Shown here piece by piece: positions 9,413 to 22,040 of a stretch of DNA of 22,846 nucleotides; within the stretch, counting starts at the first letter, position 1; each line of letters starts with the position of its first letter. Below the pieces are notes generated by a model. The model searched no databases. It was given only the letters and a program-made list of their open reading frames with translations, and was not told where the DNA came from. A program made the translations under genes and the position numbers. The DNA comes from Candidatus Latescibacterota bacterium (GTDB lineage: Bacteria > Latescibacterota > UBA2968 > UBA8231): positions 43,072-65,917 of the forward strand of contig JAGWBY010000026.1 of the NCBI GenBank assembly GCA_021295675.1. The letters run 5' to 3'.

Positions 9413-10170
9413 CTACTCGGGCGCGCCCGTCCAGCGTCTGAGCAAGAAATTACTCAAGCTACTCACAGTGGTAAATAGCCCCAAGCCGAGCAAGGTGCAA
9501 AACAGAATGCAGGCGAACAGGTAGTCGGTCTTGGCTTGGCCGTTGGTGAGGATGATCAAGTAGCCGAGGCCAAAGTCCTCGGTGCCGTAGCCGGCGAAGA
9601 ACTCGCCGACAAGGAGATGCGGGCACCGACGAGCATTTGGGGGACAGCGCCGGGGACGCGGAGCTTGAACAGCACCTGCCAGCGGTTGGCCTTGTTGAGC
9701 GCGAAGAAGTCGAGGATGTGGGGATCGACGCGGGTCAAGCCGTCGGTGGTATTGGCGATGACCGGGAAGAGGGCGATGATGAAAGAGACGGCCACCACGC
9801 CTTGAAGACCGTAGCCGATCCACAGGATGATCAGCGGCGCGATGGCGACGATGGGCATGGTCTGCAAGAAGATCGCGTAGGGGTAGAGGCTGCGCTCGAT
9901 GAGGCGCGACTGGGAAAACAGCAGGGCGACCAAGAAGCCAAAGGCAAAACTGAGGACAAAGCCCAAGAGGGCACCCGAGGCCGTCAGCAAGGTAGCCGAC
10001 AGCAGGCGCGGCAAGTTGTCGGCGATGGCACGGGCCACGAGCAGGGGCCCGGGCAACAGGAAAGGTTCGATTCCGAGGAGCGAGACTGCGCCTTGCCAGG
10101 CGCACACGACTAAGGCGAAGAACAGCAGCGGAGGCAGGACGTTGGTCGTCAGGGAGTGCAGTCGTTTCAT
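9413..10170 (-). CDS. ABC transporter permease (SsuC/TauC/ThiX type), frameshifted
   Basis: An inner-membrane permease of the binding-protein-dependent family (BPD_transp_1). The first frame gives residues 1-186 with several helices and the EAA-type coupling loop (DFFALNKANRWQVLFKLRVPGAVPQ area). It breaks near 9612 after MLVGARIS. The rest (VGEFFAGYGTEDFGLGYLI to the stop at 9413) is in another frame. In this family about nine residues like AGLAVIGAI lie between these two pieces, so roughly 26 to 28 bases appear to be missing rather than one base inserted. The ATG overlaps the ATPase stop (ATGA), which implies translational coupling. Both halves are well conserved, which favours a sequence error over old decay. 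Confidence 0.85.
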
Positions 10171-10888: not shown

Positions 10889-11815
10889 TTAACCTCGGGG
10901 GTGGTAGGTCTTGTGGACCTCTTTGAGATAGCTGAGGTCGAGATGCGTATAGATCTGGGTGGTGGAGATGTCGGCGTGGCCCAACAGCTCCTGCACGGCG
11001 CGGAGGTTGGCGCCGCCTTCTAACAGGTGCGTGGCAAAGGAGTGGCGCAGGGTGTGGGGGCTAATCTCCCTGCCGATGCGGGCCTTGTCGCCAGCAGTTT
11101 TGATGATCTTCCACACGCTCATCCGCGAGAGCGGCCCGCCTTGGGCGTTGAGAAAGACGTGGTCGCTCGAGTCGGGACGGGCGAGGTGAGGGCGGCCTTG
11201 ACGCAGGTAGCGTCTGAGCGTGCGTGCGTCTTTGGCCGCGATGGGTACGATGCGCTCGCGCCGGCCGCGGATGCGGATGAGGCCCCGCGCCAGCAGCAGG
11301 GCCTCCTGTTGCAGCGCGGTCAGTTCGGAGACGCGGATGCCGGTGGCGTAAAGCACAGCGAGGATGGCCTTATCGCGCTGGCCCAGCGGCTCGTCGGGGT
11401 CGGCTGCGGCGAGGAGGGCGGCGATTTCCTCGATTGAGAGCACGTCGGGTAAGCGGCGCTCCAGTTTGGGCGGGTCGAGGAGTTCGGCTGGGTTGTGCGT
11501 CGTTGCGCCCTTGAGCAGTAAGTACTGGTGGAAGCGCTTTATCGAGGTGAGGTTGCGAGCCATGGTGGAAGCAGTTAGGCCGGCGTCGCGCAGCGAGTGG
11601 AGCAAGCGAGCGATGTGTTGGTGTTGGACGGTTTCTAGGTGCTCGACGCCTTGGGAGGATAGGTGATGCAAATAGCGGTTGAGGTCGCGGCGATAGGCAT
11701 CGAGGGTATTGGCCGCCAGCCCATTGTCGCGCTCCATGGCTTGGAGGAAGCGCTCGCAGGGATCGGACAGGGCCGCTGGCAGCGGGCGTTCAGGCGTGGA
11801 TTTCGGGCGGGCCAT
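10889..11815 (-). CDS. xerD: Tyrosine recombinase XerC/XerD family; catalytic lysine apparently missing
   Basis: 308 residues from the ATG at 11815; the open frame extends further upstream but there it is only the shadow of uvrC. The N-terminal SAM-like core-binding domain (FLQAMERDNGLAANTLDAYRRDL) is followed by the catalytic domain with R161 (GIRVSEL), H254-x2-R257 (HTLRHSF), H280 (LLGHADIS) and nucleophile Y289 (TTQIYTHL). The beta-hairpin that carries the catalytic Lys (GKGxKER in XerD) reads IRGRRERIVPI here: two residues, including the Lys, are absent. XerCD resolves chromosome dimers at dif. Length and C-terminus (LKEVHKTYHPRG) fit XerD better than XerC. It overlaps uvrC by 26 bases and abuts the ATPase gene. 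Confidence 0.9.
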   Translation of the reverse strand: MARPKSTPERPLPAALSDPCERFLQAMERDNGLAANTLDAYRRDLNRYLHHLSSQGVEHLETVQHQHIARLLHSLRDAGLTASTMARNLTSIKRFHQYLLLKGATTHNPAELLDPPKLERRLPDVLSIEEIAALLAAADPDEPLGQRDKAILAVLYATGIRVSELTALQQEALLLARGLIRIRGRRERIVPIAAKDARTLRRYLRQGRPHLARPDSSDHVFLNAQGGPLSRMSVWKIIKTAGDKARIGREISPHTLRHSFATHLLEGGANLRAVQELLGHADISTTQIYTHLDLSYLKEVHKTYHPRG

Positions 11816-13598
11816 GATCTGGGCTGTTGAGATGGGCGAGCAAGGCGTCGGCCTGTTTGCGGCTGAAGCCGGGGAGGGCGGCGATTTCCTCGGCTGGCGT
11901 GGCGGCGATGCGCTTGACCGAGCCGAAGGCAACCAGCAGGGCCTTGCGCTTTTGCGGGCCGATGCCGGGGACGTGATCCAAGGTCGAGCTGAGCGCGCTT
12001 TTGGCGCGTTGCTGGCGGTGGTTTTTGAGCGCGAAGCGGTGGGCTTCGTCGCGCAGCATCTGCAACAGGCGCAGGCTGGCCGAGGTCTTGGGCAGCAGCA
12101 GGGGATCGCGCTGGTCCGGCAGGATGACTTCCTCAAAGCGCTTGGCGAGGCCGACGACGGGTTGGTCTGTTATGTCTAGCTCGCGTAGGGCGGCGACTGC
12201 GCTGGAGAGCTGGCCCGAGCCGCCGTCGATGAGCAGCAAGTCGGGCCGCGGCTCGTTGCGTTCGGCCAGGCCGCGGAAGCGGCGATGTACTACTTGGTGG
12301 ATGGCGGCGTAGTCGTCGGGCTGCGCGAGATCGCGGATTTTGAAGTAACGGTACTGGCTGCGCTTGGCCCGCCCATCGATAAAGCAGACCACCGAGCCGA
12401 CAGGGTGCGCGCCTTGGAAGGTGGAGATGTCGATGCCTTCGATATGGCGAGGTGGAGCCGCTAGCTGCAAGTCGCGCTGGAGGGCATAGACCGATTGGGG
12501 GATGCGGTCGCGTTTCATCTCGCGCTTGAGCTGGCGTTCGGTGAGCATTTGGGCGGCGTTTTTGGTGGCCATGTCGAGCATTTGCGCTTTGGCACCGCGC
12601 TGGGGGGTGGCCAAATCGACCTTGCCGTCGGCCTTTTGCGACAGCCAAGTAGCCATCGCGTCGGCGTCCTCCGGCTGGGCTGGCAGGTGGATCTCGGGCG
12701 GGACAAAGTCGTTTTGCAGGTAGAATTGCCGCGCAAAGGCCGAGAGGATGTCCCCGTCGGAGGATTCCATGACCCCGCCGAGGAAGTGGTGCTTTTTGCC
12801 GAGCAGGCGGCCCTCGCGGATTTCGAGGACGCTGCAACAGGCTTCGTCGTCGCTGCGGGCCATGCCGAGGACGTCGCGGTCTATCTGGTCGTCGAGGACG
12901 ACCTTTTGGCGCGCGCGCATGGATTCTAGGGCTTGGATCTGGTCGCGGAAGCGGGCGGCTTTTTCGTAGCGCATGTCTTCGGCGGCCTCGGTCATGCGCT
13001 TTTGTAGCTCGCGGATCACTTCGGCGTTCTGGCCGCGCAAAAAGCGCACGGCCCGCTCGACGGTTTTGCGGTAGTCGTCAGCCGAGACGAGGTTTTCGCA
13101 GGGGCCTTCGCAGCGCTTGAGGCACCTTGTCTGAGGGCAAATGGGCGTTGCAGGCGCGGATGGGGAAGACCTTGCGCAGCATGTCGAGGGTGGTGTGCAT
13201 GGCGCGGACGTTGCTGTACGGGCCGAGGTAGCGCGAGCCGTCGCGGACTACGTCGCGGGTGGCGAAGATGCGGGGAAACGGCTCGGCGGTGATGCGGATA
13301 TAGGGGTATTTCTTGTCGTCTTTGAGCAGGATGTTGTAGCGCGGTTTGTGGGTGCGGATTTGGGTGGCTTCGAGGATGAGGGCTTCTTGTTCGCTACCCG
13401 TTACGATGTAGTCGATGTCGGCGATGTTGCGGACTAGGGCTTTGAACTGACGCCGGCCATCGCCGCCCGAGATGCGAAAGTACGAGCGCACCCGGTCGCG
13501 CAGGCTTTTGGCCTTGCCGATGTAGATGATCTGCCCGTCGCGCCTTTTCAGGGCAGGGCGTCGAGTTTGAGGCGCAGATCTTCGGAGAGGTTTTTCAT
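11790..13598 (-). CDS. uvrC: Excinuclease ABC subunit C, interrupted by two frameshifts
   Basis: UvrC makes both incisions in nucleotide-excision repair. The start at 13598 gives MKNLSEDLRLKLDALP and then a TGA. The frame beginning LKRRDGQIIYIGKAKSLRDRVRSYF continues the GIY-YIG domain to about 13135. The third frame restarts at TRCLKRCEGPCENLVSADDYR and runs to 11790. At the first junction the PGVY half of the GIY-YIG motif is lost (about 8 residues). At the second, part of the Cys-rich segment before CEGPC is lost. Downstream features are intact: UVR motif (MRYEKAARFRDQIQAL), RNase H-like domain (IEGIDIS, LLIDGGSGQLSSA, RDEAHRFA) and a double helix-hairpin-helix (VPGIGPQKRKALL, LPGFSRKQADALL). 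A good promoter lies 33 bases upstream. As read, it could not encode a working protein. Confidence 0.92.
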
Positions 13599-13630
13599 CA
13601 GAAAGGGATGCAGATTGACATATTGCAACG

Positions 13631-13659
13631 AGGATAGGCGTTTTGCCGGATCGCGTCAA
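13631..13659 (-). promoter_or_regulatory. Sigma-70-type promoter of the uvrC operon
   Basis: On the minus strand TTGACG (13654-13659) and TATCCT (13631-13636) are spaced by exactly 17 bases, with uvrC starting 33 bases after the -10 box. The same boxes and spacing, with matching flanks on both sides, recur at 20828-20856, which supports a real element rather than chance. Confidence 0.65.
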
Positions 13660-13686
13660 GACGGGCGAGAGATGCGGGATTGGCAG

Positions 13687-13950
13687 CTACTTGAGCAAGA
13701 GTAGTCGTCGGGTCTGCTCGCCGCCGGGATAGTGCAGGCGCACGAGATAGACCCCCGCCGCTAACGCCGTACCGGCGTCCCAGCGGACTTGGTGTGAGCC
13801 GGCGGCTTGGAACTGATCCACGAGTGTGCGCACGGGTTGGCCCAAGGTGTTGTAGATCGTCAGTCGCACTGGGCCGGGGGTGGCTATGTCGTAGACGATT
13901 TGGGTGCTGGCGTTGAAGGGGTTGGGATAATTGGGGGATAGGCCGCTGGT
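13687..13950 (-). repeat. CTD cassette, copy 1 (in the YWTD gene)
   Basis: 264 bases encoding the 86-residue sorting domain. It is nearly identical at DNA level to 15815-16090, which is 12 bases longer because of an extra NQQG. Shorter copies of its 3' end lie at 19009-19110 and 19853-19948. Confidence 0.85.
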
Positions 13951-15756
13951 GGCTGGTATCGCTGGCGTGGCGTCGGGCGTTGAGATCGCGGTTGGGTGGG
14001 AGATGTCTAAGGCGAGGTCTGTTGGCTCTGGAGATATTCCCCATCCTCCATCTCCTAGTGTCCATATCTCCTCGAGGTTGGATCCATCCAAGTTGGACCG
14101 GAAGAATTCGGTCCATACTGGGGGCACCTCACCTACCATCCCAAGGCCGTCGGCTCGATGCGACAAGTATATTTTGTTTCCAGTTAGGTCCAGGGCGAAG
14201 GCTTTAAAGGATCCCCAACCCCAATCCTTGTCAGAACGAGTGACGATAGTCTCGACGTTTGAGCCATCTAATTCCGCCCGTTGAATCGCCTTCCCATCTG
14301 CGTCCATCCAGTATATCTTGCCCGCCAGTACATCGAGAGCCATTTTTTCACTACTATCGCTATCCGTTGGTTCTGAGACGATAATAGCTTCGACATTGGA
14401 CCCGTCCAGGTCCGCTCGCTGAATGGTGTGCTCCCATTGCTCCCTTCGGAAGCTCTCAGTCCAATAGATCTTATCCCGGACGCCATCAAGGGCAATATCT
14501 CCGGGGTTGCTCAAACCTGTAAGGACCTCTTTGACGTTGGACCCGTCCAAGTCCGCCGCCTGAATTTTCCCGTCGTCCACCCAATAGATTTTGTCCCCTT
14601 CTAGCAGGGCAATGTCCTTAGGACGATTTCCGGTGATCAGGATTTCGAGGTTTCGGCCGTCCAAGTCGGCCCGATGGATCGTCCCCTTCCACGCGTCGGA
14701 CCAGTACATCTTGTCCAAGTACAGGGCAATACCGTGTGGTCTCCTTACTGTTGGATCAAATAGGATTTCGACATTTTGGCCGTCTAAATCCGCACGCTGA
14801 ATCGTCCCCTGCCTTGAGTCCGCCCAATAGATTTTGCCTCCGTCCACGTCAAGGGCGATACCTATGCGGGGCCCCCTCCAGTCGGTATAGAGGACGTCTT
14901 CCTGTAAGTTGAATAGGATTTCGACGTTGGAGCCATCCAAATCCGCACGCTGAATCGTCTGCGTGGCTGGATTGGTCCAGTATACTTTGCCTCTGTCCAC
15001 GTCGAGGACTATTTCTTCGGGGTAGCCATCAGATACGGTGAGGACCTCTTCGATATTTTCTCCGTTTAGGTCCGCCCGCAGGATCGTCTTCGTGCTTAGG
15101 TTGGTCCAGTACACCCTGCCTCCGTCCACATCAAGGGCCATAGCTCCGAGATAATCTCTGCTCGGAGTCGGAGGAATTCTAAAGTCGTCGAAGTTTTGGC
15201 TGAGGTCGGATCGGATTATTTGACCGGAGTACCAGTCCAGATAGTACACGTTGCCCCGGACCAAATCCAGAGCAATTTCATTACCCAGCAGCCAGTCGTT
15301 AAGGATTTCGCTATTGGAGCCGTCGAGGTTGGCCCGCCCCACATGACCATACGGATGGTCATATTCGGGGAGGTCCGAGATCCAGTATATTTTGCCCTCG
15401 AATACATCAAGCGCGATGTTCGTTACCCCTGTCGCCTCCCAACCAGCGTTAAAGTCTTTGAGATTGGAGCCATCTAGGTTAGAGCAATAGATATTCCGAC
15501 GATCTGCCCAGTATATTTTGCCCCGCAATAGATCGAGTGCGATGTCGGTAGGACGCCTCAAGTCTGACTCGATGAGTTGTTCGACATTGGTGCCGTCGAG
15601 GTTGGCCCGCTGGATGCCTTTTACTCGGTTCGTCCAGTAGATTTTGCCTTCCGCGATCGGCGGCTGACCGTAGCTGGTGCCTTGCCCGACGAGGGCCAAC
15701 CACGCCATTGCGAACAGGAATGCAGTGATTTTTCGAGTGGCGATCAGGTGTATCAT
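13687..15756 (-). CDS. Secreted YWTD beta-propeller protein with type IX-like C-terminal sorting domain
   Basis: 689 residues. A signal peptide covers residues 1-30. From residue 37 to about 590 there are 12 repeats of roughly 40-50 residues with the core GKIYWTN...IQRADLDGSNVE...IALD. This is the LDL-receptor class B (YWTD) pattern. Since YWTD propellers have six blades, 12 repeats suggest two tandem propellers (inference). Residues 604-689 form a CTD (SGLSPNYPNPFNASTQIVYD, VRLTIYNTLGQPVRTL, GVYLVRLHYPGGEQTRRLLLLK) of the FlgD-Ig-like/type IX sorting kind. The protein is likely surface-exposed or released and may bind ligands. GGAGG lies 7 bases before the ATG. No catalytic residues are recognised. 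Confidence 0.9.
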   Translation of the reverse strand: MIHLIATRKITAFLFAMAWLALVGQGTSYGQPPIAEGKIYWTNRVKGIQRANLDGTNVEQLIESDLRRPTDIALDLLRGKIYWADRRNIYCSNLDGSNLKDFNAGWEATGVTNIALDVFEGKIYWISDLPEYDHPYGHVGRANLDGSNSEILNDWLLGNEIALDLVRGNVYYLDWYSGQIIRSDLSQNFDDFRIPPTPSRDYLGAMALDVDGGRVYWTNLSTKTILRADLNGENIEEVLTVSDGYPEEIVLDVDRGKVYWTNPATQTIQRADLDGSNVEILFNLQEDVLYTDWRGPRIGIALDVDGGKIYWADSRQGTIQRADLDGQNVEILFDPTVRRPHGIALYLDKMYWSDAWKGTIHRADLDGRNLEILITGNRPKDIALLEGDKIYWVDDGKIQAADLDGSNVKEVLTGLSNPGDIALDGVRDKIYWTESFRREQWEHTIQRADLDGSNVEAIIVSEPTDSDSSEKMALDVLAGKIYWMDADGKAIQRAELDGSNVETIVTRSDKDWGWGSFKAFALDLTGNKIYLSHRADGLGMVGEVPPVWTEFFRSNLDGSNLEEIWTLGDGGWGISPEPTDLALDISHPTAISTPDATPAIPATSGLSPNYPNPFNASTQIVYDIATPGPVRLTIYNTLGQPVRTLVDQFQAAGSHQVRWDAGTALAAGVYLVRLHYPGGEQTRRLLLLK

Positions 15757-15814
15757 AAGTAAACCTCCGTTCGTCCGGGCCGATTAGGATGAACGATAGA
15801 CGCGGATTTGGAAG

Positions 15815-16090
15815 CTACTTGAGCAAGAGTAGCCGCCGGGTTTGCTCGCCGCCGGGATAGTGCAGGCGCACGAGATAGACGCCCGCCGCCAACTCCGTGC
15901 CTTGTTGGTTGCGGGCGTCCCAGTGGACTTGGTAGAAGCCAGCAGCTTGGAACTGATCCGCGAGCGTGCACACGGGTTGGCCCAAGGTATTGTAGATCGT
16001 CAGCCGCACTGGGCCGGGGGTGGCTAAGTGGTAGGCGATCTGGGTGCTGGCGTTGAAGGGGTTGGGATAATTGGGGGATAGGCCGCTGGT
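15815..16090 (-). repeat. CTD cassette, copy 2 (in the LRR gene)
   Basis: 276 bases, the same cassette as 13687-13950. Similarity continues past the stop codon for about 30 bases, so the copied unit is DNA and not only a conserved domain. Confidence 0.85.
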
Positions 16091-18949
16091 GGTCGGCAAG
16101 TTCTGAGATGCAACTGCCACCGAGGTAGCGGTCTCGTCGGACGCGCTTGGGATGTCTGGGCAAAGCGGCAGGTAATCGGCCCACTCGGCCAATGCCTCCG
16201 GTACGCAGGTGAACTGGTTGTCGTAGAGAAATAAATCCCGCAGCGTTGTCAATTGTCCCAGTTCGGATGGGATCGGTCCTGTTAACTGGTTATCGTAGAG
16301 GTACAACTTCAGTAGCGTTGTCAATTGTCCCAAGGCAGGAGAAATCTGCCCCGTCAACTGGTTGTTGTTGAGATATAACTCATAGAGCGTTGTCAATTGT
16401 CCCAATTCCAGTGGAATCGAACCCGTTAGTAGGTTGTTGTTCAGGTACAACCCCTGCAGCCTTATCAATTGTCCCAATTCCAATGGAATCGAACCTGTTA
16501 ATTCGTTGGATGAAAGATTTAGACGCCTGAGCCTTGTCAGTTGACCCAACTCGGCAGGAATCTGCCCCGTCAACTGGTTGTCTTGGAGATACAACGAGCT
16601 GAGCTTTGTCAATTGTCCCAATTCGGGCGGGATTGGTCCCGCCAACTGGTTGTTGTTGAGGAACAAATCCGTGAGATTGATCAATTTTCCCAAGGTGGCA
16701 GGAATCGGCCCCGTCAACTGGTTGTCGTGCAGGAGCAAATCCCACAGCGTTGTCAATTGTCCCAATTCCAGTGGAATCGAACCTGTTAATTCGTTGGATG
16801 AAAGGTTTAGACGCCTGAGCCTTGTCAGTTGACCCAGCTCAGGCGGAATCGGCCCCGTCAACTGGTTGTTGTGGAGGTCTAACTCGCTAAGCTCTGTCAA
16901 CTGTCCCAACTCCGCCGGTATAGGACCTGTCAACTTATCGGAGGAGAGGTCTAACTCGCTAAGCTCTGTCAACTGTCCCAACTCCGCCGGTATAGGACCT
17001 GTCAACCCATTGGCGTAGAGTTTTAACTCCCTGAGTTCCGTCAATTTTCCCAACTCGGGCGGTATAGAACCCGTCAACCCCCTACTGTAGAGAGACAATT
17101 CCGTAACGCGAGAGTCTTCGACTTTGACGCCTTGCCACTGGGGGACAGATGCGTACGCGCTCCACTTCAAGGTGTCCCGGACGTCCCACCTGTTGCGTAC
17201 AGTAAGGAGTGCCTCGCAGTCCGCCACTAGACCGGGGTTGTTCTGCGGATTCGGCACAGCAATGCCATTGCCACATAGAGCCGGCTCGTCCGGACAGACC
17301 GGCAGCTCGCTGATCCACTTAGCTAGGCCCGCCGGTACGCACCCGGTCAATGCCTTGTCATCAAGTTCCAAATTCGTGAGTTGGATCAACTGTCCCAACT
17401 CCACCGGAAATGGGCCCGTCAACTGATTGTTGCGGAGGTTCAACTGAAAAAGCCCTGTCAGTTGACCCAACTCCGGTGGAATCGCATCTGTCAGGGCATT
17501 GTTTTGAATGTACAGGCGCTCCAAGTGGATCAGTTGGCCCAATTGCGGCGGGATCGTCCCGGTCAGCGCGTTGTAGCCGAGGATCAACACCTTCAGCTCT
17601 CCGAGTTGACCCAGTTCAGGTGGAATCGTCCCAGTCAACGCGTTGTTGTGGAGGCTCAACGCCCTGAGTTGTGTCAACTGACCCAATTCGGGCGGTATCG
17701 TCCCGGTCAAGGCATTGTCGCCGAGCCAAAAACTTTCCAGTTGGCTGAGTTGTCCCAACTCCGGTGGGATCGCACCCGTTAGCTGATTGGTGTCCAAGTT
17801 CAGTCGCACGAGTTTGGTTAGTGTTGCCAGTTCGGGTGGGATCGCCCCCATTAAGGCGTTGTCGTTGAGAGACAGATCTTCCAATTGAGGCAATTGGCCT
17901 AGCTCAGGGGGTATCGTTCCGGTCAGCGCATTGCCACTGAGGGACAGACTTTCCAAGTGGACCAACTGGCCCACCTCCGGCGGAATCATCCCCGTCAGGG
18001 CGTTGTCGTCGAGGGACAGACTGTGCAAGTGGCTGAGTTGTCCTAATTCGGGTGGGATCGTCCCGCTCAGCGCGTTGTAACCGATGAACAACTCTTTCAG
18101 CTTGCTCAGTCGAGCCAATTCGGGTGGGATCACCCCGGTCAACTCATTGAATTCGAGATCTAGCGTTCTGAGTCGCGTCAACTGGTCGAATTCGGGTGGG
18201 ATCGTTCCAGTCAGTGCATTGCCGTTGAGGGCCAGATTCTCCAATTGTCCCAATTCGCCTAACTCGGGTGGGATTGTCCCCGTCAAGGCGTTGTATCCGA
18301 GGTCCAAAACCTTCAACTCTCCCAAATGAGCCAATTGGGGCGGAATTGAACCGGTCAAGAGCTGCCTACTGAGGTTCAACTCCGTGACGCGATCGTCGCT
18401 TACCGCGACGCCATCCCAGTCGCTGATCGGTGTGTCCGGACTCCAATTCAAGAAGCCGAACCCGTCCAGACTATCGCGTACGGCCAAGAGCAATTTACAG
18501 TCAAACACCAAGTCGTGGTTGTCTTGCGGTTCCGGCACGACAATGCCGTTGGCGCACAACTCCCAAGGATGGGGGCTTAAGGGCTCTCTATCTTCATTTT
18601 CATCCCAACCTCGGGATGTCCACACCATTGCTTCAGATAGCGCCCAATTCGCCCTTCCGAGTCTACCTTTATCGCTGGATGCGTCGTCGCGGCCATATCG
18701 CAGCGAAGTCGGGGTCTTATTTCCGCTGATGTCGTAGCGGGGATAATAATAGTACCCGGTTCTGGAATTTTGAATTACACCTCCTTTTTCGGATAACAAG
18801 TAGTGTCCAAATTCGTCCACTGATTCTCTCACAGTAAAGCTGGTCCCATCTGGTTGAACTATGATCCGGATGCCGCGGTCTTCAGGGATCGCCGAGGCGG
18901 GTTGGAGAGGGAAGAGGAGGATGAGAACGATTATACCATTTCGAGCCAT
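15815..18949 (-). CDS. Secreted leucine-rich-repeat protein (28 plant-type LRRs) with type IX-like C-terminal sorting domain
   Basis: 1044 residues from the ATG at 18949, which has AGGAAGGA about 8 bases upstream. A signal peptide covers residues 1-20. Residues 25-75 (IIVQPDGTSFTVRESVDEFGHYLLSE...GYYYYPRYD) resemble the N-terminal domain of M6-type peptidases, but no protease follows. Two modules then each open with a cap (LCxNGIxVPxPQ ... DC..LL.VR ... W.GV.V...RVTEL), as in plant LRR receptors, and continue with 24-residue LRRs (LTGxIPPELGQLxxLxxLxLxxN): 15 repeats at 188-547 and 13 at 615-926. Residues 955-1044 are the CTD. The protein is likely a surface or released binding protein. Module 1 favours ALTGTIPPEL and module 2 favours QLTGPIPxEL, so they were probably joined from different arrays. 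No frameshift is seen. Confidence 0.92.
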   Translation of the reverse strand: MARNGIIVLILLFPLQPASAIPEDRGIRIIVQPDGTSFTVRESVDEFGHYLLSEKGGVIQNSRTGYYYYPRYDISGNKTPTSLRYGRDDASSDKGRLGRANWALSEAMVWTSRGWDENEDREPLSPHPWELCANGIVVPEPQDNHDLVFDCKLLLAVRDSLDGFGFLNWSPDTPISDWDGVAVSDDRVTELNLSRQLLTGSIPPQLAHLGELKVLDLGYNALTGTIPPELGELGQLENLALNGNALTGTIPPEFDQLTRLRTLDLEFNELTGVIPPELARLSKLKELFIGYNALSGTIPPELGQLSHLHSLSLDDNALTGMIPPEVGQLVHLESLSLSGNALTGTIPPELGQLPQLEDLSLNDNALMGAIPPELATLTKLVRLNLDTNQLTGAIPPELGQLSQLESFWLGDNALTGTIPPELGQLTQLRALSLHNNALTGTIPPELGQLGELKVLILGYNALTGTIPPQLGQLIHLERLYIQNNALTDAIPPELGQLTGLFQLNLRNNQLTGPFPVELGQLIQLTNLELDDKALTGCVPAGLAKWISELPVCPDEPALCGNGIAVPNPQNNPGLVADCEALLTVRNRWDVRDTLKWSAYASVPQWQGVKVEDSRVTELSLYSRGLTGSIPPELGKLTELRELKLYANGLTGPIPAELGQLTELSELDLSSDKLTGPIPAELGQLTELSELDLHNNQLTGPIPPELGQLTRLRRLNLSSNELTGSIPLELGQLTTLWDLLLHDNQLTGPIPATLGKLINLTDLFLNNNQLAGPIPPELGQLTKLSSLYLQDNQLTGQIPAELGQLTRLRRLNLSSNELTGSIPLELGQLIRLQGLYLNNNLLTGSIPLELGQLTTLYELYLNNNQLTGQISPALGQLTTLLKLYLYDNQLTGPIPSELGQLTTLRDLFLYDNQFTCVPEALAEWADYLPLCPDIPSASDETATSVAVASQNLPTTSGLSPNYPNPFNASTQIAYHLATPGPVRLTIYNTLGQPVCTLADQFQAAGFYQVHWDARNQQGTELAAGVYLVRLHYPGGEQTRRLLLLK
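16172..17107 (-). repeat. Tandem 72-base repeats, LRR module 2 (13 units)
   Basis: Each unit is 24 codons. Two neighbouring units are identical over 61 bases (16874-16934 and 16946-17006, offset exactly 72). A longer-range copy links about 16467-16554 and 16758-16841 with only a few differences. This indicates recent unit duplication. Confidence 0.9.
17309..18388 (-). repeat. Tandem 72-base repeats, LRR module 1 (15 units)
   Basis: Fifteen 24-codon units with consensus LxxLxLxxNALTGTIPPELGQL. They are more diverged in DNA than module 2 but regular in length, with no broken unit. Confidence 0.9.
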
Positions 18950-19008
18950 TACGTATTCCTTCCTGTCGGCGGCATGGTCGCGGCCGACCTCCACGCCCCG
19001 CACTCCGG

Positions 19009-19110
19009 CTACTTGAGCAAGAGCAGTCGCCTAGTCTGCTCGCCGCCGGGAGAGTGCAGGCGCACGAGATAGACGCCTGTCGCTACTGCTCGCTGGTCGC
19101 GGGCGTCCCA
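19009..19110 (-). pseudogene. Orphan 3' fragment of a CTD-protein gene
   Basis: 34 codons in frame: WDARDQRAVATGVYLVRL, then HSPGGEQTRRLLLLK and a stop, the last third of the sorting domain. No start or upstream domain belongs to it; the sequence changes abruptly at 19110, only 8 bases from the toxin stop codon. It lies 59 bases upstream of the LRR gene. It reads as the tail left behind when the toxin-antitoxin pair or other DNA replaced the body of a CTD gene. Confidence 0.8.
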
Positions 19111-19118
19111 CGGTCAGA

Positions 19119-19517
19119 TTAGTTGCGTTCCCACCGTTCCAGAGAAATCGCGTCAATTTCTTGAAAGTGATCGTCCCGTGCGACCAAAGTCACTTGATGC
19201 TGCAGGGCCTGAGCAGCTATCCAAATATCATTCTCCGGTATGGGACGACCCTTTGCCCGAAGCGCGTTCTTTATCTGGCCATACTGTCGAGCCGTTTCCT
19301 GATTACAGCCAATGACCACCGTTGTAGAGGCGAATTCATTTATGCGCTGAATGTTTTCATCCACGCGAATGGATCGCTCAGCGCCATAATACAGCTCGCC
19401 CAAGACAATGCTGGACAAGAAAACCTCAACGGCTTGGTTCAGACGTTCCTGAATTATTTTTTCTTGAGCGAAGAGAGCGATGATGATATTGGTATCCAGT
19501 AGGTATCTACCATTCAT
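19119..19517 (-). CDS. VapC-type PIN-domain toxin (putative RNase)
   Basis: 132 residues, the usual PIN toxin length. Acidic residues are in family positions: D8 (LLDTNIIIAL), E41 (VLGELYYG), D97 (PENDIWIAA) and D115/D116 (VARDDHF). They bind Mg2+ for single-strand RNA cleavage, typically of tRNA or rRNA. The ATG overlaps the antitoxin gene by 11 bases, as expected for a coupled pair. It lies between two orphan CTD fragments, suggesting recent arrival or stabilisation of this island. Confidence 0.92.
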   Translation of the reverse strand: MNGRYLLDTNIIIALFAQEKIIQERLNQAVEVFLSSIVLGELYYGAERSIRVDENIQRINEFASTTVVIGCNQETARQYGQIKNALRAKGRPIPENDIWIAAQALQHQVTLVARDDHFQEIDAISLERWERN

Positions 19518-19737
19518 TGGGATCTACGCTTTCGCAATCGGCTTGGATCGCTTCAGCCATCCTGTCTAAGTCTTCCCTATCTATTGTTCCTGCAAAGCGC
19601 AGCAGAGCCTTGCCGGGTACGCCTTCCATCTCGGACTTTGCTAACGAACGCACGAATTCCAGCACCTCCGCTTGTTGGCCTTTGCCCAATTTATGGATCT
19701 CATCGAGAATTTCTTTTTCTACAGACGTATCTTGCAT
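19507..19737 (-). CDS. Antitoxin of the VapC-type toxin (DUF2281/VapB-like)
   Basis: 76 residues. The N-terminal half (EKEILDEIHKLGKGQQAEVLEFVRSL) is the helical segment of antitoxins usually found before PIN genes. The tail (FAGTIDREDLDRMAEAIQADCESVDPNEW) is the acidic toxin-wrapping part, with the characteristic C-terminal VDxNEW. A strong GGAGG lies 7 bases before the ATG at 19737, so antitoxin should be made in excess of toxin. The pair is probably autoregulated, but no clear operator could be assigned. Confidence 0.85.
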   Translation of the reverse strand: MQDTSVEKEILDEIHKLGKGQQAEVLEFVRSLAKSEMEGVPGKALLRFAGTIDREDLDRMAEAIQADCESVDPNEW

Positions 19738-19775
19738 TTTCAGTCCTCCACATTCACGAGTTGTACATGTCTGAG

Positions 19776-19803
19776 AAGATACATGGCGAGTTTGCGTTTA
19801 CAA
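19776..19803 (-). promoter_or_regulatory. Possible promoter of the toxin-antitoxin pair
   Basis: Minus-strand TTGTAA (19798-19803) and TATCTT (19776-19781) with a 16-base spacer, 38 bases before the antitoxin ATG. Nearby ACATGT-type palindromes (19765-19770) could be operator half-sites. Weak match. Confidence 0.35.
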
Positions 19804-19852
19804 GATATACATATACATCTGCCGCTCATGCTGATTTCCGCACACTTGGCAG

Positions 19853-19948
19853 CTACTTGAGCAAGAGCAGTCGTCGGGTCTGCTCGCCGCCGGGATAGTG
19901 TAGGCGCACGAGATAGACGCCTGTCGCCAACGCCGTGCCTCGCTGGTC
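19853..19948 (-). pseudogene. Second orphan 3' fragment of a CTD-protein gene
   Basis: 32 codons in frame: DQRGTALATGVYLVRL, then HYPGGEQTRRLLLLK and a stop, nearly identical to the ends of the intact copies. Upstream, 19949-20048 holds no intact gene; short coding-like scraps in different frames (NVTISHPSGW, then DGKVAVRYHVR) could be the decayed domain before the CTD. With 19009-19110 it brackets the toxin-antitoxin pair. Confidence 0.78.
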
Positions 19949-20048
19949 GCTGGTCTGGTTTTTCGGACGTGATAGCGCACAGCGACCTTACCATCCACTG
20001 GGGTGTGAGATCGTTACATTGGTCGCGAAAGCAGAGCGCACGAAGAGG

Positions 20049-20741
20049 CTAGCTATCTTCGCCTGCCGCTTCGTGCTCAAAGCGTTCGCGCCGTTCTTGC
20101 AAGGTTTCGCCTTCGTACATCCAATAGAGAGAACCCCTTGCAGACTGCGAACCCTTGATATCTTTTGCCAGACCGGAAATGGTGCTTCGCTTTTCTTGAT
20201 ATTCAACGTGATTATTCTCGTCCACGGCTTTGCAAGTTATGCTCGGGTCATCAGTCCACTCTAAAATCGCACCAACAGGAACTTTTGCCATCGTGAATTT
20301 AAAATTTTCTGCTCTAGGGGGGCGTTCTACCTCATCCTCACCCGTATCCTCAGCCGTGTCGGCAGGACTTGGCGTTACATCTTCCTTTTCATGTAGTTTC
20401 AGAACCGCTTTTATACGGAATGGAGCAATGCCCTCGAAAAATTCTCGATTTGGGCGGACCCGGTTCTCGCCAAACGCTACGTGTAAGGCCTTTTCCACCT
20501 CTTCGTAGTTTTCAACCACGGCTGCATATTCGCAGTTAAACGCTCGTGGCACACCGGTACGGTCCAAGTCCTTCATCCGATTCTTGACGTCTTGGACAGA
20601 ATTACCTCCGGTCTTCCCAATTTTTACATATCCCTCCATCGCGGGGTTAGTCAGCAGGTACGCGATGCCTTCCGTACCCATACCCGCTGGTGGTTCAGTA
20701 GTGCTAGGTTGGCTTGTCATTTCTTGCTGTTGTTCAGCCAC
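20049..20741 (-). CDS. GIY-YIG (T5orf172) nuclease-family protein with DUF4357-like C-terminal domain
   Basis: 230 residues. The start is GTG at 20741: AAGGAG lies 7 bases upstream, while the ATG two bases earlier is out of frame. Residues 25-115 form the T5orf172 variant of GIY-YIG (IAYLLTNPAMEGYVKIGKT, then VKNRMKDL with the catalytic-type Arg, then PNREFFEG with the catalytic-type Glu). An acidic linker (about 120-142) leads to a DUF4357-like domain (VPVGAILEWTDDPSITCKAV ... SARGSLYWMYEGETLQERRERF). Such proteins are often found near restriction or phage genes, but none is present here. DNA cleavage is possible, not shown. It has its own promoter overlapping the end of rlmI. Confidence 0.85.
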   Translation of the reverse strand: MAEQQQEMTSQPSTTEPPAGMGTEGIAYLLTNPAMEGYVKIGKTGGNSVQDVKNRMKDLDRTGVPRAFNCEYAAVVENYEEVEKALHVAFGENRVRPNREFFEGIAPFRIKAVLKLHEKEDVTPSPADTAEDTGEDEVERPPRAENFKFTMAKVPVGAILEWTDDPSITCKAVDENNHVEYQEKRSTISGLAKDIKGSQSARGSLYWMYEGETLQERRERFEHEAAGEDS

Positions 20742-20827
20742 ATCAGTTCTCCTTAGTAAAGGGTTGTGTCTGGTAATTATAGAAGACTACAGGTATGCCG
20801 TTCGCTGTCAGGTTGGCTATTACAACG

Positions 20828-20856
20828 AGGATATGCCTTTCACCCGGCAGCATCAA
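20828..20856 (-). promoter_or_regulatory. Sigma-70-type promoter of the GIY-YIG gene
   Basis: Minus-strand TTGATG (20851-20856) and TATCCT (20828-20833) with a 17-base spacer. The rlmI stop codon TGA is inside the -35 box. Flanks on both sides match the uvrC promoter. A TATAAT at 20776-20781 without a good -35 is an alternative. Confidence 0.55.
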
Positions 20857-22040
20857 GAAAGGCGAGAGACGCGGGCGAAGATGCACTTGAGGTAGCGTCC
20901 GTCGGGGAAGGCTGGGTCTATCGGGTGGTCGGCTGGGTGTAGGTTGTAGGTGAGGATGCGGGTGCGGACCCGGGCGCCAGCGGCGGCGCGGCGGACGATT
21001 TGGAAGAAGTCCTCTTGAGAAATTCGCGCCGAGCACGAGGCCGTCACCAGCAGCCCGCCGTCGGCTATGAGGCGGAAGGCGTTGCGATTGAGTTTGGTAT
21101 AGACGCCCATGGCCTGTTTGTACTGGCTGCGTTTCCGCATCAGCGAGGGCGGGTCGCAGATGACGATATCGTAGCGGGGGCCGCGCTCGGCCAGTTCGTC
21201 CACAAAGGGAAAGACATCGGCGATCAACAGGTCGGAGTGGGAGCCTTGGGGGCGGTTGGCGGCGAGGGTGCGGCGGGCGGCGGGCACGACTTGGGGCGAT
21301 ATATCGACGTCGAGGGTGCGGGATGCGCCGCCTTTGAGGGCGTGGGCCGAAAAGCCGCTCGAATAGGAGAAGAGGTTGAGCACGCGCTGGTCGCGGGCGA
21401 GCTGCTGGAGGTAGAAGCGGTTGGCGCGCTGGTCGAGAAAAAAGCCGGTCTTCTGGCCGCGGTAGAGATCGGCGTAGAGGCGCGTGTCGTGTTCTTCGAT
21501 CTCGACGAACTCGGGTGGAGCTTCGCCCGCTAGCAGGCCGGTGGGCCGGTCGTCTAGCCCCTCGGCGCGGCGAGTGCCCACATCGCTGCGTTCGTACAGG
21601 CTGCGGGGGGCGAGCAGGGATTGGAATGCGATGGCGGGGCGTTGTTTTTCCATGCCAGCGGTGTGGAATTGCACCACTAGGTAGCCGGCGTAGTCGTCGG
21701 CGATTAGGCCGGGCAGGCCGTCGCTTTCGCCGTGGACTAGGCGCATGGCGTTGGTGTGGGCGGATAGACCGGCGCTGTGGCGGAGGGCAATGGATTGGGC
21801 GATGCGCTCTGTGAAGAAGGCCGCGTCAATGGGGCGGCTGGGGTCTTGGGTGAGACTGCGCACGCGGATCAGCCCGCGACAGACGAAGCGCTCATGCGCG
21901 TCAAAGACATCGACGATATCGCCGGTGTCGGCGTCCTGGGGAGGGCGTTCGACCGCGCCGGAGAAGACCCAGGGGTGGCCGTTGCGCACGGTGCGCTCGC
22001 TGTTGGGGCGCAGGTAGAGGGGTGGATAGTGGGGGGTCAT
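20853..22040 (-). CDS. rlmI: 23S rRNA (cytosine(1962)-C5)-methyltransferase RlmI-like
   Basis: 395 residues, the normal family length. An N-terminal PUA domain (about 1-75; NGHPWVFSGAVE) is followed by a middle domain with MRLVHGESDGLPGLIADDY and the TGFFLDQRANR motif, then a Rossmann methyltransferase domain. SAM motif I is at 219-232 (VLNLFSYSSGFSAH), motif IV is DPPS (296-299) and SCS is at 335-337. The family methylates C5 of a cytosine in 23S rRNA. Between L57 and I58 (near 21869) the usual YNPxSQ segment of the PUA domain is absent in frame, the same kind of loss as in neighbouring genes. It is divergent from the GH32 gene across 163 bases. Confidence 0.88.
   Translation of the reverse strand: MTPHYPPLYLRPNSERTVRNGHPWVFSGAVERPPQDADTGDIVDVFDAHERFVCRGLIRVRSLTQDPSRPIDAAFFTERIAQSIALRHSAGLSAHTNAMRLVHGESDGLPGLIADDYAGYLVVQFHTAGMEKQRPAIAFQSLLAPRSLYERSDVGTRRAEGLDDRPTGLLAGEAPPEFVEIEEHDTRLYADLYRGQKTGFFLDQRANRFYLQQLARDQRVLNLFSYSSGFSAHALKGGASRTLDVDISPQVVPAARRTLAANRPQGSHSDLLIADVFPFVDELAERGPRYDIVICDPPSLMRKRSQYKQAMGVYTKLNRNAFRLIADGGLLVTASCSARISQEDFFQIVRRAAAGARVRTRILTYNLHPADHPIDPAFPDGRYLKCIFARVSRLS

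Follow-up and report, generated by a model that had tools for sequence, protein, structure and literature searches.

Gene content of the rlmI-uvrC interval

The window, that is, the whole stretch of 22,846 nucleotides that was analysed, carries an interval delimited by rlmI and uvrC. In the order of transcription, on the minus strand, it contains rlmI, a T5orf172 gene, a remnant of a secretion domain that we call tail 4, an antitoxin gene, vapC, a second remnant called tail 3, a leucine-rich-repeat (LRR) cargo gene, an LDL-receptor-class-B-repeat (LDLRb) cargo gene, and uvrC. The upstream border (20853..22040) encodes an rlmI-like 23S rRNA methyltransferase whose NCBIfam and Pfam matches were below the equivalog cut-offs; between the window and the close relatives this gene has 90-94% nucleotide identity. 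The T5orf172 gene (20049..20741; PF10544, E 6.2e-12) occupies the place that the body of another cargo gene has in two relatives, G001 and G002. Tail 4 (19853..19953) was assigned by the tail pattern, its open frame and its alignment to G001, and tail 3 (19009..19110) by the same pattern, its open frame and a junction with vapC that is common to G002 and G011. Between them are the VapB-like antitoxin gene (19507..19737) and the gene of a VapC-like PIN toxin (19119..19517). The downstream border, uvrC (11790..13600), was identified by comparison with relatives and its frame is broken in the window.

The LRR cargo gene (15815..18949, by profile matches) was listed as an open reading frame starting at 19003, the ATG at 18949 being the likely start when judged by eye against the G003 protein. 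The LDLRb cargo gene (13687..15756) matched PF00058. The C-terminal sorting domain (CTD) of cargo of the type IX secretion system (T9SS) was found above cut-off in both predicted genes, 13687-15756 and 15815-19003, with scores of 41.4 and 37.2 bits for TIGR04183 (T9SS type A; cut-off 23). The window also has a gene for a T9SS component of the PorV/PorQ family (1697-2749; NF033709, above cut-off).

A short repeat, P, of about 86 bp, precedes uvrC (13601..13686). It copies the final rlmI codons together with the intergenic region, in which there is a promoter-like TTGACG-17-TATCCT for uvrC. This copy was recognised by repeat comparison and by its conserved sequence and position. Another copy lies beside rlmI (20809..20875), 76-78% identical to part of 13601-13686, and a shortened and diverged copy of the rlmI 3′ end (15757..15804), detected by eye and with a G001 counterpart that matches P, is found between the LRR tail and the LDLRb gene. 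Scans of the window for promoters and terminators were no better than in shuffled sequence (4 promoter-like sites against a mean of 4.2, and 4 terminator-like sites against a mean of 7.7), so the promoter in P is assigned only from conserved sequence and position.

The initial annotation had described a VapBC-type pair bracketed by two in-frame 3′ fragments of the CTD that ends the two intact neighbours, with all four copies in the same direction, and this description was borne out. The four copies constitute one repeat family (D4), each coding on the minus strand, and a degenerate tail pattern matched exactly four places of the window (13690, 15818, 19012, and 19856) and 0 in 100 shuffles. 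The fragment lengths given there, 34 and 32 codons, also agree with our measurements: the frame ending at 19009 has 34 codons, all of them tail-like, and the frame ending at 19853 has 44, about 32 of them tail. The same is true of the gap of 8 bases between fragment and toxin, tail 3 being alignable to 19110 and the vapC stop codon starting at 19119. While the intact neighbours carry the full domain, the orphan copies correspond only to the last 14-34 codons of TIGR04183. Tails 3 and 4 are probably untranslated, as no usable start was seen.

Variation of the interval in related genomes

The comparison set comprised 11 genomes of one genus, G001 to G011. When genome contigs were scanned with the tail pattern, a single place was obtained, in VXML01000080.1 (Gemmatimonadetes bacterium isolate SB0661_bin_36), which is G001. 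The DNA identity of uvrC to the window was 89-93% in G001, G002, G003, G004, G007, G008, G010, and G011 (95% for one piece of G010) and 75-79% in G005, G006, and G009; judging by these identities, the window probably belongs to this genus. Several relatives are fragmented, and rlmI and uvrC lie on separate contigs in G003, G005, and G009. The T9SS translocon is present in the relatives, with SprA (TIGR04189) above cut-off in 9/9 genus genomes searched. The T9SS sorting-domain matches in nine relatives numbered 47-113 per genome, which in four of the nine, where they were counted among the first 150 candidates, are to be read as at least that many. With SprA in all nine, these many CTD matches indicate that relatives of a bacterium that bears the label Gemmatimonadetes have an extensive type IX secretion repertoire.

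The slot between rlmI and uvrC had a different content in each of the eight close genomes (those with the higher uvrC identity), with rlmI and uvrC constant, and its size went from less than 200 bp in G007 to about 29 kb in G001. Reading from rlmI to uvrC, the slot of G001 contains an FGE-sulfatase cargo gene with an intact CTD, the antitoxin gene without VapC, about 24 kb of other genes, an AbiEi-like gene, a tail stub, and the LDLRb cargo gene. G002 has the same FGE-sulfatase cargo gene intact, followed by VapBC and an orphan tail, and G011 has an orphan tail of about 14 codons, VapBC, and another orphan tail, that is, the bracket without any cargo gene. In G008 there is a uracil-DNA-glycosylase-like gene seemingly fused to the first LDLRb codons, and then the antitoxin gene, an AbiEi-like gene, and an orphan tail. 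The slot of G004 is formed by the LDLRb cargo gene, P, an AbiEi-like gene with AbiEii, and again P, and that of G010 by an AbiEi-like gene, the antitoxin gene, and an LRR gene without CTD. In G003, where the slot is divided between two contigs, a match to the first 30 LDLRb codons lies beside rlmI and is followed by an LRR gene, and an LRR cargo gene with CTD precedes uvrC. Only 54 bp of the antitoxin gene are present in G007. The labels AbiEi-like in G001, G008, and G010, AbiEii remnant in G001, and LDLRb head in G008 were given by eye, from likeness to the scanned proteins.

In the sister group the interval is occupied in another manner: G006 has a large CTD gene that runs the opposite way, and in G005 and G009 a CTD gene oriented like it adjoins rlmI, uvrC being on another contig. 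The G006 gene (L117:2113-8439) has 2108 codons and a CTD-like end. In the distant G024 the distance between rlmI and uvrC is about 8 bp. The stretch of about 24 kb in G001 that is absent from the window (C93:75000-98900; L046/L047) contains several large genes, some of which weakly resemble the slot cargo in their CTD, and also encodes a TPR protein. It was also possible to see that 5′ remnants of the LDLRb gene are seemingly kept beside rlmI in G008 (L107:9224-10054) and G003 (L119, C307), so that heads are left as well as tails.

The genes directly upstream of the orphan tails in the slot are VapC (tail 3 of the window, G002, and G011), an AbiEi-like gene (G008), a short AbiEii remnant (G001), the T5orf172 gene (tail 4 of the window), and rlmI itself (first tail of G011). 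The tree of the flanking genes was unresolved (bootstraps 16-82) and that of the CTD DNA was poorly supported; neither was used for event counts, because the order and number of losses cannot be derived from them.

Toxin-antitoxin genes of the slot

VapBC modules of type II have a small antitoxin gene directly upstream of the toxin gene, often overlapping it. The pair in the window has this arrangement: the antitoxin gene (19507-19737) is upstream of vapC (19119-19517) and overlaps it by 11 nt. The toxin has a PIN domain (PF01850, E 1.3e-18, 68.2 bits, cut-off 23.6) and matches NCBIfam VapC models below their cut-offs. The antitoxin had no family match in Pfam at E<=1 or in NCBIfam at E<=0.01. 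In a cyanobacterial plasmid, a relative of the antitoxin with 46% identity is encoded directly upstream of a VapC relative with 58% identity, in the same order.

VapC with at least 94% identity was found in 2/11 genus genomes, G002 and G011, in both cases in the slot, and distant relatives of it (identity of at most 45%) are found elsewhere in several genus genomes. Orthologues of the antitoxin gene occur in G001, G002, G008, G010, and G011, those of G001, G008, and G010 without this VapC, in addition to the fragment in G007. The AbiEi-like gene behaves in a similar way; it forms a DUF6088/AbiEi-like plus AbiEii pair in G004, as in the type IV AbiEi/AbiEii systems, and apparently stands without AbiEii in G001, G008, and G010. 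In G001 the first AbiEii codons seem to run into the tail stub. Toxin genes are thus absent from the slot more often than antitoxin genes, and the gene states across the relatives point to repeated loss of toxins with the antitoxins remaining. This differs from VapBC and AbiEi/AbiEii modules in that several relatives keep a slot antitoxin gene without its toxin.

Tail 4 and the apparent exchange of cargo bodies

The structure of the upstream tail was clarified by alignment with G001. Window positions 19511-19953 align, with one small gap, to G001 C93:98954-99390, a stretch that takes in the antitoxin gene, the region upstream of it, and some 32 codons from the 3′ end of the FGE-sulfatase cargo gene (PF03781); this gene is intact at this position in G001 (606 codons) and G002. 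The homology ends inside the CTD and resumes at 20809, beside rlmI, and the 855 bases in between hold the T5orf172 gene. Considering this alignment to an intact gene, tail 4 is the 3′ scar left by the FGE-sulfatase cargo gene. The body of that gene is missing and the T5orf172 gene now occupies its place; the body either was deleted before T5orf172 arrived or was replaced by it. The identity of tail 4 is slightly higher with the tail of the G001 LDLRb gene (89%) than with the tail that occupies the equivalent position in G001 (84%), which blurs its ancestry, and the comparison is too short to place it firmly. By the same alignment, the DNA between tail 4 and the antitoxin gene is the 3′ flank of that cargo gene. 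The suggestion of the initial annotation that the TA pair was loaded as a passenger upstream of a resident tail does not simply apply, then, as the DNA adjoining the pair on the side of tail 4 is the normal 3′ flank of a gene intact in G001 and G002.

Synonymous divergence was compared along the FGE-sulfatase gene of G001 and G002. The body had a dS of 0.065 and the CTD (last 91 codons) a dS of 0.302, a ratio of about 4.6; in the same genome pair dS was 0.193 for uvrC and 0.176 for xerD, and the first 45 codons of the cargo gene gave 0.296. Codons 46-495 contained 14 synonymous differences in ~302 sites and the last 111 codons 18 in ~90 (Fisher P 2e-5, with borders that were drawn after the profile was seen), while the CTD did not differ from uvrC in synonymous divergence (P 0.53). 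In dS, the CTD of the G001 gene was less distant from the other CTD in the slot of G001 (0.173) than from its G002 orthologue (0.302). As a control, 26 reciprocal best pairs of CTD genes elsewhere gave a median CTD/body dS ratio of 1.03 (range 0.42-1.72), and the two G001/G002 pairs among them had body dS of 0.242 and 0.237. These pairs, several of which share a gene, derive from 74 CTD-gene loci of five genomes, taken from among the matches listed and not at random; a usable frame, read from stop to stop, was obtained for 64/74, and the other 10 had no open frame with the CTD motif. The LDLRb gene deviates in the opposite way, with CTD/body ratios of 0.51, 0.33, and 0.34, a contrast that misaligned repeats may inflate.

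A low body dS between diverged ends means that a recent exchange replaced the body while the 5′ end and the CTD stayed resident, or that the ends were converted afterwards. The cargo gene common to G001 and G002 thus provides one clear case, for one gene and one genome pair, of an apparent mosaic of a recently exchanged body and a diverged CTD. An ordinary allelic exchange would give the same picture if its tract stopped at the CTD by chance.

The proposal in the initial annotation that CTD DNA is a recombination handle was sustained in part: tails stay while the genes upstream of them change, and in this gene body and tail recombined separately. It fails to account for the orphans, whose ends are ragged (about 14 to 34 codons) and non-homologous. 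Homologous recombination from tail to tail would join a body to a tail, so no orphan would be expected, and ragged ends meeting unrelated DNA point to non-homologous deletion or insertion. Among the matches listed in the open-licence literature there was no report of orphan CTD tails or of CTD DNA as a recombination handle, which is weak evidence of absence.

Taking these data together, we consider it probable that the rlmI-uvrC interval is a hotspot of gene turnover where recombination finds local homology in the CTD tails and in the rlmI 3′ end, cargo bodies come to be swapped or to disappear, and the tails are what ragged deletions leave behind as scars. Across the relatives the slot holds T9SS cargo genes with FGE-sulfatase, LRR, or LDLRb bodies and similar CTD DNA, TA modules (VapBC and AbiEi/AbiEii), and odd genes such as T5orf172 and the uracil-DNA-glycosylase-like gene. 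Two short repeats would provide the homology: the CTD tail, which measures about 100-280 bp, and the stretch formed by the rlmI 3′ end and its promoter, which measures about 86 bp. Recombination in the CTD would change the cargo body and leave the CTD in place, for which the FGE-sulfatase gene is the single example, and non-homologous deletion or replacement, to which the ragged ends point, would remove bodies and leave short 3′ scars. Tail 4 is the scar of the FGE-sulfatase gene and tail 3 probably an older one beside vapC, with VapBC a resident between them.

Another arrangement, to which we give a minor share of belief, is that the slot is a dedicated exchange site for surface proteins. A resident promoter repeat upstream and a resident T9SS tail downstream would be kept, the cargo bodies would be swapped between them, and the TA modules would contribute to the persistence of the slot in the population as toxins and bodies come and go.

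The rlmI 3′-end repeat

P was found only at the rlmI-uvrC slot in the eight genomes searched (E<=1e-3). Copies or parts of it adjoin rlmI, precede uvrC, precede LDLRb in both the window and G001, and separate the inserts of G004, where there are three copies. The tails that precede uvrC, LDLRb, or P are followed, in 8/9 cases, by TAGCTGCCAA or a one-base variant of it and then by rlmI 3′-end sequence, G003 being the different one. This regularity suggests that inserts arrive with a duplication of the rlmI 3′ end.

It could be thought, on this basis, that circular DNA enters by site-specific or Campbell-type insertion at the rlmI 3′ end or at a cargo 3′ end and duplicates it, P copies and tails being attachment-like direct repeats. 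We regard this as unlikely. In its favour, P comprises the last rlmI codons with the intergenic promoter and is present on both sides of inserts, three times in G004; in G002, VapBC has an intact CTD on one side and a partial tail on the other; and an xerD gene, next to uvrC, lies about 2 kb away. However, XerD scores over the cut-off of the housekeeping model TIGR02225, and its gene is in the same place beside the near-empty slot of G007. No inverted core was found in P, the remnants are ragged, and no integrase was noticed among the slot open reading frames listed or scanned, in a reading that was not systematic. Integrons and integrative-element cassettes have a dedicated integrase and recombination site; an insertion of the Xer or integron-like type was not supported by these observations.

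Distribution of orphan tails

With a 108-bp tail as query, 31 matches were obtained in 13 of the 27 genomes searched, and 27 of these matches could be classified: 23 end open frames of at least 137 codons and four are orphans (one in G002, one in G008, and two in G011). The unclassified ones were two at contig edges, both in G035, one in G012, and G004:C1:5041769. All four orphans are in the rlmI-uvrC slot, as is the tail stub of G001, and 18/23 intact tails are elsewhere. A search of 60 genomes, in which the best and the partial 3′ matches were classified and frame counts were left unused as unreliable where the alignment stops early, added one partial 3′ match in the distant G045. It is a likely orphan, with ~27 tail codons in a frame of 91 (L109:3134-3409; C218), on a 3.85-kb contig without rlmI or uvrC. 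Within the genus, then, the orphans found belong to the rlmI-uvrC slot, and outside it there is probably at least one other case.

The full model of the initial annotation, in which CTD DNA is a genome-wide handle for homologous recombination, a shuffling platform of which orphan tails are by-products, appears hardly probable to us. Many orphans with varied genes directly upstream, in a count of orphan and full tails, had been proposed as support for it. The varied genes upstream of resident tails were found, but the orphans are 4/27 and in one slot, and the 18 matches elsewhere end long frames. The separate recombination of body and tail in one gene and the likely orphan of G045 speak for the platform; the 26 control pairs, none with a mosaic of equal strength, and the ragged orphan ends adjoining unrelated DNA speak against it.

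Tail 3 and the junction with vapC

The final bases of vapC (CAACTAATCT) are identical in the window, G002, and G011, and in each of them a tail comes next, with ~34 codons in the window and ~20 in the other two. The simplest reading would be one ancestral vapC-tail junction that was trimmed later, and from this common junction tail 3 is probably an older scar beside vapC, already present in the ancestor of the three copies.

The same junction bears on the possibility that the bracket is an assembly artefact, in which four near-identical repeats led the assembler to drop gene bodies. Compared with G001, the window is missing stretches of 25, 19, 20, 22, 12, 20, 25, and 18 nt at 9612, 10260, 13120, 13550, 13773, 14571, 14580, and 21872, respectively, and the two at 13120 and 13550 break the uvrC frame; they may be real decay or an assembly fault, and to that extent the sequence may be unclean. 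Nevertheless, the bracket is also present in G011, and in G002 the VapBC pair is again followed by this orphan tail, so the bracket is not an accident of the window assembly alone. With separate genomes sharing both the junction and the bracket, an artefact is very improbable and was discarded as its cause.

That the tail is meant to fuse to VapC and give a secreted toxin is practically excluded: the tail starts 8 bases past the vapC stop codon in the window and is in the vapC frame in G002, but the stop codon is kept in all three genomes with the tail in three different frames, so a fusion is not the point, and the PIN match spans nearly the whole profile. VapBC looks like a resident between two former cargo genes, predicted to be an ordinary module and not a secreted or tail-fused toxin.

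Relation to known systems

By comparison with the orphan cdiA-CT/cdiI modules of CDI/Rhs loci, some common features were recognised. In those loci, fragments of variable length, most without start signals, gather at one place beside intact genes. Small toxin-related genes are interspersed, and the swapping of parts is attributed to a proposed recombination at a conserved sequence (PMC3150448). The slot is alike in having fragments of varied lengths beside intact genes and TA genes among them. The arrangement is nevertheless inverted: the variable part in CDI/Rhs is the C-terminal toxin, with the conserved part upstream (PMC3150448), whereas in the slot it is the C-terminal sorting tail that is conserved and the body that changes; and the TA pair looks like an ordinary VapBC, unlike a cargo toxin with its immunity. 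Orphan CDI/Rhs fragments encode polymorphic C-terminal toxins with immunity genes; the fragments of the slot are ends of a sorting domain and not toxins, and the tails were not assigned to that class.

A second likeness is with the T9SS surface proteins of Porphyromonas gingivalis, in which domain rearrangement, allelic exchange, and gene conversion among cargo genes with shared domains are described (PMC5266723). There, as here, T9SS cargo genes with shared domains diversify by recombination. In P. gingivalis it is adhesin and catalytic modules that vary, and the passages of that work considered here do not mention orphan CTD fragments or a TA-bearing slot (PMC5266723).

A bacterium with a T9SS can have dozens of cargo genes whose sorting-domain ends are alike. 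In the locus analysed, this common ending appears to act as recombination homology in at least one gene and to be left as a visible scar of lost genes, and orphan tails could serve to read the loss history of secreted proteins. The interval is, in addition, a case of two kinds of TA module recurring in one variable slot, in which antitoxin genes seem to outlast toxin genes.
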